Shown piece after piece: positions 56,417-63,749 of a stretch of DNA of 64,000 nucleotides. Position 1 is the first letter of the stretch, and each line of letters starts with the position of its first letter. The notes beneath the pieces were generated by a model. The model was given only the letters and a program-made list of their open reading frames with translations, searched no databases and was not told the DNA's origin. The translations under genes and the position numbers were made by a program. The stretch covers positions 434,001-498,000 of the forward strand of contig CT971583.1 in NCBI GenBank assembly GCA_000063505.1, read 5' to 3'. Source of the DNA: Synechococcus sp. WH 7803 (lineage in GTDB: Bacteria > Cyanobacteriota > Cyanobacteriia > PCC-6307 > Cyanobiaceae).

Positions 56417-58553
<2,137 letters not shown>

Positions 58554-58556
58554 GGT

Positions 58557-58772
58557 TCAAGCGCTGGCCATGATGTCCCGCTGCTTGAGCAGTTGCTCAA
58601 GCACCTCTTCAAGCCTCTGAAGTTCAGCGTGTTCGGCCACGGTGGCATCGATCCGCTTTTGAGGGAGCTTCAGCTTTTTGCCCATGGAGATCACGTCTTC
58701 GCGCAGGCGGTTGCGATAGGCCTCGAGCTCTTCGATTGAATCGAGAAGCTCTTGAAGCGTTGGATCGGGCAT
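58557..58772 (-). CDS. small conserved protein of the phycobilisome rod region
   Basis: The 71-aa product is almost entirely helical (LQELLDSIEELEAYRNRLRE, LQRLEEVLEQLLKQRDIM) and charged, probably a coiled-coil hairpin. I recognise no named family. It lies 3 bp before the cpeS-like gene and so heads the cpeS-pebA-pebB run. An adaptor role is conceivable but not shown. Confidence 0.65.
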   Translation of the reverse strand: MPDPTLQELLDSIEELEAYRNRLREDVISMGKKLKLPQKRIDATVAEHAELQRLEEVLEQLLKQRDIMASA

Positions 58773-59693
<921 letters not shown>

Positions 59694-59737: not shown

Positions 59738-60244
<507 letters not shown>

Positions 60245-60274
60245 GCCGTCGATTCAGATCGTTCCATCGATCAA

Positions 60275-60300
60275 GGGAGGCCAACAGGCCTCCCTTTTTT
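60275..60300 (+). terminator. intrinsic terminator after cpeA
   Basis: GGGAGGCC and GGCCTCCC pair perfectly around AACA and are followed by TTTTTT. It lies 31 bases after the cpeA stop and separates cpeBA from the linker gene. Confidence 0.95.
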
Positions 60301-60530
60301 AATGGTTACGAGAACATCATGCAGAGGAGAGTGTGACGCGTTCTTTTTTTCTGTGGTGTCGACGCTTGCTAGCGATGGTGCTTTTCAGAGATCTTCCGCA
60401 AAAAAAACAGTTGCCACACGACTGCAATCATGCCTACAAGAAAATTTAGGTTTGCTGTTTTAAGTAGAGCTAAGAAGTTTGAGGTCAGTTGAAAAAGAGC
60501 AATAAATTGGCTTTCAGACGCATTCCCCTC

Positions 60531-61391
60531 ATGCCTGCAATTAAGTTCAAGAGAGACTTCACTCATCAGGATCGAGTTTCTTTCTCATTTTCTAATTCAA
60601 GGGATGCTGCAAAAGGATCTGCAGAAAAGGGCGGTCAAGTCGCCTCAAGCCCTGCCGAATTTAAAGAGAATCAATGTGGTTCGATGGGAATTGGATCCGG
60701 CCCTCGAATTCATGAAGTCTGCCCGTTCTCAGCGGTGAACCATTCCTACGCAGCGACCGGTGAAGGTGCGCTGAGCCAAGCGATTTCGGCTGCTTACAAG
60801 CAGGTTTTCGGTAATATCGGTATCACAGATAGTCAAAGGCTTGTGTCGCTGGAGGCGTTTCTCCGCGATGGGCGAATCACGACGCGTGATTTTATGGCTG
60901 GCCTTGTGAAGTCTGAGCTGTATAAGCAGACATTCTTTTTTGCGGTCTCTCCGATGCGAGGTGTCGAGTTGACTGTTAAGCATCTTCTTGGGCGTCCGCC
61001 GGTGAGCCAATCAGAGGTCGGCGCCGCGATCAAAATGATTGCTGATGAAGGATTTGATGCGTTTGTCGATCACCTGGTCCGATCGGAGGAGTATCTGGAA
61101 ACATTCGGTACAGATACCGTCCCCTACTTGCGTGCGTTTAAGTCAGAAGCTCGAGCGTATTGCTCGACCTTCGTCAGCATGGCTGAGCTTGCGCCTGCCA
61201 ATGCCAGTGCAGAGAACGTGATGTATTCGGGGCCTCTACTGGTGAGGCGTCTTGTCAAGACAGGGCTGTCTGTGAACGCGATCAATCCGAGAGCTTTTGA
61301 CACCAGTGTGGAATTCTCATACACAAATGCTGTTGGTAATACCCGCAATCCTGCGTTCCGGCGCATTTACGGGGGCAAGTTTGCATACTGA
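60531..61391 (+). CDS. phycoerythrin-associated rod linker, gamma-type (MpeD/CpeC-like)
   Basis: The 286-aa protein has an N-terminal extension of about 75 residues, one PBS linker domain (ISAAYKQVFGNIGITDSQRL, LRDGRITTRDFMAGLVKSEL, VKHLLGRPPVSQSEVGAAIK) and a short C-terminus ending FRRIYGGKFAY. Cys49 in FKENQCGSMG matches the position at which PE-II gamma linkers carry phycourobilin. The gene and its leader are AT-rich compared with neighbours. MpeD is my preferred name, CpeC or MpeC the alternatives. Confidence 0.8.
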   Translation: MPAIKFKRDFTHQDRVSFSFSNSRDAAKGSAEKGGQVASSPAEFKENQCGSMGIGSGPRIHEVCPFSAVNHSYAATGEGALSQAISAAYKQVFGNIGITDSQRLVSLEAFLRDGRITTRDFMAGLVKSELYKQTFFFAVSPMRGVELTVKHLLGRPPVSQSEVGAAIKMIADEGFDAFVDHLVRSEEYLETFGTDTVPYLRAFKSEARAYCSTFVSMAELAPANASAENVMYSGPLLVRRLVKTGLSVNAINPRAFDTSVEFSYTNAVGNTRNPAFRRIYGGKFAY

Positions 61392-61414: not shown

Positions 61415-61461
61415 TCCAGTCAAAAGGGGACATCTGTCTTCTCCTTTTGACTGGATTTTTT
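61415..61461 (+). terminator. intrinsic terminator after the linker gene
   Basis: TCCAGTCAAAAGG (61415-61427) and CCTTTTGACTGGA (61443-61455) form a perfect 13-bp stem with a 15-base loop and TTTTTT after it. It starts 24 bases past the linker stop. Confidence 0.92.
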
Positions 61462-61621
61462 CGAAAAAATAGATTGAGTCTGCAGGCCTTGAGCCCTCCC
61501 TGGGCGAGCTCTGCCTCTCCAGTCGTTGTGTTAATGATTTCAAAAGATTGATCTTCTTATCATCCGCTTCGCGGTGACCTCCGTTGTGGAGGAGAGTCGT
61601 TGTCTGTTTGCTGTTTTTGGG

Positions 61622-62239
61622 ATGACGTCGCATCCACAGGTTGACCGTCCGGACCTTGATGCGTTGTTCGCAGACCTTGCCCATCCCAATCCCAATATCC
61701 AGAGGGAGGCCTACCTGGCGATGGTGGACTACTGGCCAGAGCAGTCAATGCCTCGCCTGCTCGCGCTGCTGGGGCAGTCGGATGTCTCGGTGTATCGAGC
61801 AGCAGTCAAAGGTCTTGGTGCTTTTGGGGCCAAGGCTCTCCAGCCTTTGGCTGACTTATTCACATCCAGCCCTGATGGAACTGTGAGGGCATGCTGCGTC
61901 AAGGCCTACGCCCAAATCGCTTCCAATTTTCCTGAAGAGGAGTTTTCCCCTGAGGCGATGACGGTGCTGGAAACAGCGTTGTCGGATGAATCCCCGGTTG
62001 TGTCTCAATCGGCAGTGATGGCTTTGGGGCAGGTTGGGATTCAAGCTCTGCCTCTGTTGATCCGAATCTGTAAAGGAGACAACATCGCTCATGTTCAGTC
62101 TGCTGCGATGGCTCTCGCCGAAATTGCAGACCCTCAGGCCGAAGCTTGTTTGCGAGAGGTGCTCGATGACCCCTCGACTGATCCGTTGGCACGGCAGATG
62201 GTGGAAGCGTCTCTAGGGCGTCTCGAGAGCCGCCGATAA
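61622..62239 (+). CDS. cpeZ: phycobilin lyase CpeZ-like
   Basis: The 205-aa protein consists of HEAT-like repeats (NPNIQREAYLAMVDYWPEQS, VYRAAVKGLGAFGAKALQPL, VSQSAVMALGQVGIQALPLL) of the E/F clan and matches CpeZ in length. CpeZ works with CpeY to attach phycoerythrobilin to PE alpha and also acts as a chaperone-like helper; cpeY is not in the window. Start ATG 61622 fits the family better than one 16 codons upstream. Confidence 0.78.
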   Translation: MTSHPQVDRPDLDALFADLAHPNPNIQREAYLAMVDYWPEQSMPRLLALLGQSDVSVYRAAVKGLGAFGAKALQPLADLFTSSPDGTVRACCVKAYAQIASNFPEEEFSPEAMTVLETALSDESPVVSQSAVMALGQVGIQALPLLIRICKGDNIAHVQSAAMALAEIADPQAEACLREVLDDPSTDPLARQMVEASLGRLESRR

Positions 62240-62346: not shown

Positions 62347-63243
62347 TTAGGAGCGCTTATGGAGCTGATTAATGGCGAGTTGCAGGATTGGTTTGATCGT
62401 GTCATCCGATTCGATCGTCATGCGTTCAGACAGAGCTTTGATCGCGACGGGATCCTCGAGTTTCATCAGTGAAAGGGCTGCGTTTTTGCGAACGAGTGCA
62501 GATTCATCGTTCAAGTTGGGCTGCAGCAGAGGGAGAGCCCACTGGCTGTCATTGAGTTTGCCCAGTAACGTCGTCGCCTCAGCGCGGACGTCCTCGTCGT
62601 CGTCCTGCAGTGCATTGGTCAGGAGTTCTCGAGCATCGTCGTCTCCGGAATTTTGAATTTGATCACCGAGAGCCGCGATAGCCGCGGTGCGTATCCGTGC
62701 TTCAGGCGAACGTGCTGCCTCCCGAAGTGCTTCAGGGGCTCGGGCTCCTACGAAGGCCAGCCCCCAGCTGGCAAGTCCTGTCTGCATTGGTGTGTTGTTG
62801 GAATCCACGAGAATCTTGAGGAGTCCTTCAACGGCTTCTGATCCAATAACAGCCATGGCACCAACAGCCGATCCCTGAACCACGGGATCGTCGTCATTGA
62901 GCAGTGCTTTGAGCAGGTGGGGTAGCGCCTGCTTGTCTGCTATCAATGTGAGGGTCTTGGCTGCAGCGCGCCGTACGGTCACGTTCTCGTGATCGCACAT
63001 GGCCTGACACAACGCAGGAACCGCTGCGCTACCAACCGAGCCAAGGCTTTCAGCAAAGGTGAGACGGAGCAGTCCTCGCTTGTCTCCGAGTCCTGCCACC
63101 ATCCGCTCGATCGCCTGGGTATCGCCCGCCAAACGTTGGCCTTGCCGCAGCTGCTGCTTGAGCTCCTCGGCAAGGTGCTCAGCTTCGTCTTCGCTCAGCG
63201 TGACGGGTTCAGCACTGGTCAGCGATGAGGGTGCGTTGGTCAA
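62347..63243 (-). CDS. mpeU: phycobilin lyase, MpeU-like (E/F clan)
   Basis: The 298-aa HEAT-repeat protein (TVRRAAAKTLTLIADKQALP, VVQGSAVGAMAVIGSEAVEG, RIRTAAIAALGDQI, VRKNAALSLMKLEDP) matches MpeU in length (about 297 aa). The related MpeV/CpeF are the main alternatives; MpeV is a lyase-isomerase acting on PE beta. MpeU occurs in strains with PE-II. Divergent from the DUF2656 gene by 71 bp. Confidence 0.75.
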   Translation of the reverse strand: MTNAPSSLTSAEPVTLSEDEAEHLAEELKQQLRQGQRLAGDTQAIERMVAGLGDKRGLLRLTFAESLGSVGSAAVPALCQAMCDHENVTVRRAAAKTLTLIADKQALPHLLKALLNDDDPVVQGSAVGAMAVIGSEAVEGLLKILVDSNNTPMQTGLASWGLAFVGARAPEALREAARSPEARIRTAAIAALGDQIQNSGDDDARELLTNALQDDDEDVRAEATTLLGKLNDSQWALPLLQPNLNDESALVRKNAALSLMKLEDPVAIKALSERMTIESDDTIKPILQLAINQLHKRS

Positions 63244-63314
63244 GATTGAGCTGAAGCGGTGATTCAGTATCCGATGCTGTGGTCGCTAAGGTCACTCCAA
63301 TGTTCTGAATCGTT

Positions 63315-63749
63315 GTGACCACCTTCGTTCTTTCCCACAATCTGCAGGTCAACGATTCAGCTGTGCCGGCCCTGGCCTTTGATGTTTTGACGGCTGGTTT
63401 GCAAACGCATTGCCCCTCGGTCACTGCGGCTGAAGCGCTTAGTCATCCGCACTGGAAAGTGAAACTTGAATCGACGGCTTCACCCGACGCTCTCGCGCGT
63501 GAGCTCGTTCAGGGGTGGCGTCGGGTGCGTGAAGGCCTGGGTCATGGCCATGCCCATGCCGTGATGGCCCTTGGCGGTCGCAAAGACTCCGAAGGCAACC
63601 CTGGTGCGCCCCTGCAACAAGGTGGTTGGGGCGTTGATGTGGTGGAAACAGCAGATGCTCAGGGTTTTCTGGCTGCAATCAATTGGACCGGCCTGACGGC
63701 CGGTCGCCCTGCGGATGGGGTCTTTGAAGTGATTGACCCCGCCTCCTGA
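63315..63749 (+). CDS. DUF2656 family protein of the phycobilisome region
   Basis: The 144-aa protein (GTG start) has MTTFVLSHNLQVNDSAVPAL, LVQGWRRVREGLGHGHAHAV and ALGGRKDSEGNPGAPLQQGG. I recognise this as DUF2656, found in cyanobacteria with phycoerythrin gene clusters; its role is not known to me. The His/Gly-rich centre is notable. It is 2 bp from the convergent end of the next linker gene. Confidence 0.75.
   Translation: MTTFVLSHNLQVNDSAVPALAFDVLTAGLQTHCPSVTAAEALSHPHWKVKLESTASPDALARELVQGWRRVREGLGHGHAHAVMALGGRKDSEGNPGAPLQQGGWGVDVVETADAQGFLAAINWTGLTAGRPADGVFEVIDPAS

Follow-up and report, generated by a model that had tools for sequence, protein, structure and literature searches.

The closest described counterpart of the locus studied here is MpeE, a rod linker of phycoerythrin-II (PE-II). 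In the parts of the original description that concern it (Six et al., 2007, PMC2246261), mpeE lies inside the rod cluster of strain WH7803, its location differs among strains, and the rod model for WH7803, a strain that lacks mpeC, has two PE-II discs. Our locus shares with that description the linker domain, the two N-terminal cysteines, the place in a rod cluster without mpeC and the variable location. The same parts of the paper enter WH7803 mpeE in Table 2, report that the cysteine pair in the N-terminal extension of PE-II linkers holds phycourobilin, and place cpeZ downstream of mpeV. They also cover MpeC, which is like MpeE in being a PE-II linker with an N-terminal extension and a bilin, but which is the product of a separate gene that is absent from WH7803 (PMC2246261). 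In the relevant passages of two further papers, the mpeE product is the linker of the terminal PE-II disc in WH7803, with expression that rises in the light period (PMC3441193), and mpeE expression falls under nitrogen shortage (PMC9430850).

The window is a 64-kb stretch of the WH7803 genome (positions 434001-498000 of a single contig of 2,366,980 bases). From left to right, the region of interest reads cpeB, cpeA, a terminator, an AT-rich leader, mpeE, a second terminator, cpeZ and, on the minus strand, mpeV (Table 1). This gene set agrees with WH7803 as published in the relevant part of PMC2246261 (mpeE in the rod cluster and no mpeC). We think it likely that the AT-rich dip at mpeE is the promoter and first codons of a transcription unit of its own, one that changes site, and that its low GC is old rather than foreign. 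The core of this finding is largely ordinary, being the promoter of a known linker gene.

By homology, the linker gene is mpeE: its product has a PBS linker domain (residues 80-201, 142 bits, E = 1.1e-41), keeps Cys49 and Cys64 of the N-terminal extension like all of the 34 MpeE copies compared, and joins the copies from two other chromosomal sites (A and B, below) in a clade with support of 100/100. The names gamma subunit and gamma-type phycoerythrin-II linker are used for MpeC. The sequence-only reading of this DNA had used the gamma-type label, which fits only the type of protein, as the gene is mpeE and not mpeC.

Table 1. Features around mpeE, in window coordinates.
Feature	Position	Strand	Basis or remark
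cpeB, phycoerythrin-I beta subunit	59139..59693	+	NCBIfam NF058508, 339.6 bits (cut-off 275)
cpeA, phycoerythrin-I alpha subunit	59750..60244	+	NCBIfam NF058506, 300.3 bits (cut-off 225)
Terminator 3' of cpeA	60273..60296	+	-20.1 kcal/mol, z -5.3
Distal leader, AT-rich, poorly conserved	60301..60455	+	GC 44.5%; pairwise identity
Conserved leader box TAAS-N6-TAAG	60458..60474	+	Two TAAS half-sites 10 bp apart; alignment, scans
-10-like hexamer TAAATT	60503..60508	+	28 nt past the box
mpeE, phycoerythrin-II rod linker, 286 aa	60531..61391	+	PF00427; ATG at 60531
Cys49 codon, mpeE N-terminal extension	60675..60677	+	Cys in 34/34 copies; expected phycourobilin holder
Cys64 codon, mpeE N-terminal extension	60720..60722	+	Cys in 34/34 copies; expected phycourobilin holder
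Terminator 3' of mpeE	about 61415..61455	+	-24.8 kcal/mol, z -5.5
HEAT-repeat lyase gene, cpeZ by position	61634..62239	+	HEAT_2; gene order in the relevant part of PMC2246261; start may be 61574 or 61634
HEAT-repeat lyase gene, mpeV by position	62347..63243	-	Domain search; gene order in the relevant part of PMC2246261
65-aa ORF antisense to the mpeE leader	60369..60566	-	No family

The sequence-only reading had put positions 60361-60600 at about 40% GC between two strong terminators, and both statements hold. The GC count is 40.0%, and the two terminators fold far more strongly than shuffled sequence (z scores in Table 1). (A simple terminator finder was weak here: it missed the window's terminator, which folds well.) A hairpin resembling the cpeA terminator lies 3' of cpeA in the 8 related junctions that we aligned. 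The antisense ORF in the leader belongs to no family, and a search of 9 related rod regions gave no match to it; we therefore doubt that it is a real gene. Rfam gave no match across 52-64 kb of the window.

Across the 64 kb, GC averages 60.9% (sd 3.8) when every overlapping 240-bp window is counted. The lowest value, 39.2%, starts at 60375, inside the dip in the mpeE leader, and this dip is the only trough at or below 42%. The flanks were expected at roughly 60% GC, which is right on the left (cpeB 60.9%, cpeA 59.6%) and slightly high for the right (cpeZ 56.5%, minus-strand lyase gene 57.6%). GC is 42.6% in the mpeE leader (60301-60530), 51.1% in the coding sequence and 45.6% in the 182 nt 3' of the gene. 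With mechanical gene calls for the window and the next 16 kb (80 kb), the gap preceding mpeE has the lowest GC among 37 gaps of more than 100 nt, and in third-position GC mpeE ranks third from the bottom among the 69 genes that encode 150 aa or more. (Over cpeB the mechanical calls chose the incorrect strand, which does not affect where mpeE ranks.)

The window's lowest GC and the third-position ranking of mpeE are what a foreign cassette that arrived recently from an AT-rich donor would leave behind, but several observations make such an origin very improbable. First, the remaining three of the four genes with the lowest third-position GC are rod-region genes too: the whole region leans towards AT, and the dip is where it goes lowest. 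Second, the dip is shared: the 230-nt leader has lower GC than the upstream flank in 34 of 34 MpeE copies (mean drop 0.106, window 0.168), and lower GC than the coding sequence in 32 of them. (We took 36 MpeE loci and omitted two, in G186 and G203, because the start was not found.) Third, the divergence of mpeE is deep, as described below. Finally, there is no integrase among the nine proteins scanned and no tRNA within 10 kb inside the window, and the only mark of a mobile element is a single 12-nt exact direct repeat, GTTTGCTGTTTT, that flanks the unit at 60450-60461 and 61606-61617. We considered this repeat as an insertion scar and rejected it; its left copy is not conserved in the relatives G238 and G147, so it is probably due to chance. 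Thus, the low-GC dip is an old trait common to MpeE leaders and not a mark of recent gene transfer, and the low GC does not itself point to transfer.

The shared leader trait does not account for all of the composition at this site. Third-position GC of mpeE is 0.51-0.57 in the four copies that lie between cpeA and cpeZ (60531-61391 in the window, L074:8795-9664 in G147, L214 in G223 and L216/L040 in G238), where it is at or below that of every rod gene compared within the same strain, in all four hosts. For mpeE at another site it is 0.79-0.81 (G131 and G197). Something besides the common leader trait therefore lowers GC here.

Relaxed selection on the leader, which the sequence-only reading had also suggested, could explain the poor conservation of the distal 155 nt. 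As the whole cause of the low GC it is improbable, because the lowest GC lies in the proximal 75 nt (38.7%, against 44.5% in the distal part), which is the conserved part. Between the window and G238, identity is 74% in the proximal 75 nt and 52% in the distal 155 nt (shuffled sequence gives about 32%); the corresponding values are 53% and 41% for G147, and 49% and 21% for G223. The proximal part was the more similar in all 8 of the leader pairs compared. By these alignments the leader is not simply relaxed. Nor is the coding sequence, which is under strong purifying selection: omega is about 0.07 (window against G238: 0.068 for the coding sequence as a whole and 0.051 for the N-terminal extension; more distant pairs are near saturation and less reliable). 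Relaxation is thus possible for the distal leader only.

The conserved part of the leader contains a box, TAAS-N6-TAAG, which first became visible in an alignment of nine mpeE leaders and which we then scanned for in 34. Fifteen of the 17 close-family copies have it, at positions -67 to -72 relative to the ATG, though these copies are mutually related (three sites and few distinct sequences) and are not 15 independent events. A -10-like hexamer follows 27-28 nt past the box in 14 of the 15 box-bearing copies; the exception, at site B in G141, has the box without a -10 match. The mpeE leader of G207 has no box. In five extra checks (four new loci, and G211 again) the box was present in three, and G211 and G212 read AACTATTGCAAAG. 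The whole 2.37-Mb genome holds one match to the box at up to one mismatch, compared with 14 for a reversed control pattern. A sigma-70 scan called no promoter upstream of mpeE. Box and hexamer are kept at all three of the chromosomal sites described below.

None of the 17 copies of the other MpeE clade carries TAAS-N6-TAAG in its leader. Members of that clade (for example L082:7346, L083:6843 and L086:8501) have a different leader box, CAAACATTTTGTTGCAAGC or close to it, which is absent from the window. Judging by these leaders, the control of mpeE seems to differ between the two clades. G141 (L079 and L154) has two MpeE copies, one with 70% identity to the window's and one, of the other clade, with 47%.

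Four genomes, from two genera, have mpeE between cpeA and cpeZ (the window, G147, G238 and G223, of which G238 and G223 are metagenome-assembled), and seven have the cpeA-cpeZ junction without mpeE (G131, G115, G197, G075, G186, G002 and G240). Among 23 cpeB loci, a linker lies 3' of cpeA in two (the window and G147) and cpeZ lies directly 3' in six; mpeV is present in eight of these loci, and an ORF homologous to the one at 63315 in seven. At site A, close-family mpeE is found in seven of the eight genus g5 genomes examined, and the eighth, G207, has a 59% copy located elsewhere. Site B holds close-family mpeE in G141 and G240 (genus g1). The window's genome has a 69% homologue of the A-site regulator at 869 kb, apart from mpeE, and lacks the B-site neighbour gene, which is present in 3 of 15 genomes. 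G115, from a third genus (L220 and L095), has the same rod type (mpeB 99%, cpeA 100%) and no MpeE-like match above about 45-46% identity, so MpeE seems to be dispensable there.

In trees, MpeE copies group by chromosomal site, with each of the three sites forming a group, and not by genus. The clade of the four cpeA-cpeZ copies has moderate support (82/87 and 81/88 in two trees). In the rpoB tree the genera are separate (g5 at 100/100), and a single clade of the four genomes is rejected (AU test, P = 1.8e-5), and mpeE rejects single clades for the g1 copies (P = 0.0004) and the g5 copies (P = 0.023). Because the mpeE copies in the AU tests come from different sites, rejection would also be expected after an ancient duplication. 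The genes immediately downstream behave otherwise: mpeV and the next ORF group by genus, and the four-genome clade is rejected (P = 0.002), so the history of mpeE differs from that of these neighbours. The rod cluster appears as a mosaic, in that the window's pebB, pebA, cpeS and unk6 (56417-58772) are closer to those of G147, from the other genus, than to those of G240, from its own, while its mpeV and next ORF (62347-63749) are closer to those of G240.

One account of these trees is that the arrangement cpeA-mpeE-cpeZ arose once and passed laterally between genera by recombination in the near-identical cpeBA, separately from the downstream genes. The grouping of the four copies across genera (82/87), the rejections by rpoB and by mpeE for g1, and the contrary grouping of mpeV and its neighbour all fit this account, as does the similarity of cpeBA (99-100% identity to the window in cpeA and 95-97% in cpeB, in seven other genomes of the same rod type). 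On the other side, the trees of cpeZ and of the upstream block favour neither side (AU test, P = 0.15-0.2), and the search for a vehicle found no mpeE copy in the viral and phage collections and none on plasmids (four plasmid records carry distant linkers, at 34-46% identity). Also, when the window is compared with G147 or G223, synonymous differences amount to 0.66-0.72 in mpeE and 0.55-0.58 in rpoB, against 0.26-0.38 in cpeA and cpeB. Any transfer must be old, because across genera mpeE is no less diverged at synonymous sites than rpoB. We regard this account as evenly poised. It concerns the history of the gene and is compatible with our preferred reading of the dip.

The alternative is that a common ancestor had both a cpeA-cpeZ copy and a copy elsewhere, and that each lineage lost one. 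The same mpeE tree is expected from such an ancient duplication. Two points are in its favor: among the four cpeA-cpeZ copies the window pairs with G238, in agreement with the species tree, and mpeE has diverged as deeply as rpoB. However, not one of 65 genomes from the two genera has a cpeA-cpeZ copy together with an A- or B-type copy (E at most 1e-60), and many parallel losses would be required. This alternative is possible, but we lean against it. An old transfer between genera is, on these comparisons, plausible but not proven. The sequence-only reading had named a GC drop in all relatives together with a species-like gene tree as signs against transfer; the drop is there, and the tree is not species-like. 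Its suggested transfer between strains thus finds partial support, from gene order and trees rather than from GC, though not for a recent event. Its cassette-like layout is borne out (a promoter-like element, a terminator, and a junction that has mpeE in four genomes and lacks it in seven).

Returning to our preferred reading, in which the dip corresponds to the mpeE promoter region and the start of the coding sequence, we propose that the gene with its putative promoter (box and hexamer) and its terminator forms a transcription unit between the cpeA terminator and cpeZ. In marine Synechococcus this unit would have been located at three or more places on the chromosome, with its proximal promoter retained at every one. 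We infer that an activator binds the box, that transcription starts from this promoter, and that the unit has moved between sites in some direction; binding would switch mpeE on separately from cpeBA, and MpeE would then connect the outer PE-II disc to the rod. The low GC would date back to the common past of these leaders, with a distal spacer free of constraint adding to it. At the least, its own promoter-like element and terminator suggest that mpeE could be expressed apart from cpeBA. We are doubtful of a stronger version, in which mpeE is a self-contained promoter-gene-terminator unit whose activator site serves no other gene of the genome, and in which this unit has moved between sites and lineages and so sets the length of the PE-II rod independently of the rest of the antenna cluster.

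If our preferred reading is correct, then the locus illustrates how one component of the antenna may be controlled, and may change place, separately from the rod cluster. It does so in the cyanobacteria whose colour range is the widest known, and TAAS-N6-TAAG offers a concrete putative promoter element. The locus also gives a caution: a local dip in GC is not the same as transfer, and the odd history of mpeE is visible in gene order and trees instead.

As to what might bind the box, its two half-sites 10 bp apart bear a loose likeness, on the other strand, to the direct-repeat operators of the RpaB type. Several bases of the box mismatch the consensus of these operators, so we treat this as a lead only. 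The new details are the conserved leader box and the three-site history, neither of which we found in print in the open-licence literature. The parts of PMC2246261 that deal with mpeE give its variable location but no leader box, no site-by-site tree and no contrast between junctions that have mpeE and those that lack it. The gene islands for CA4 in marine Synechococcus, as described in the relevant part of PMC3877281, are similar in that pigment genes occupy alternative places on the chromosome. In contrast to those islands, mpeE is one linker gene with its own putative promoter and terminator.
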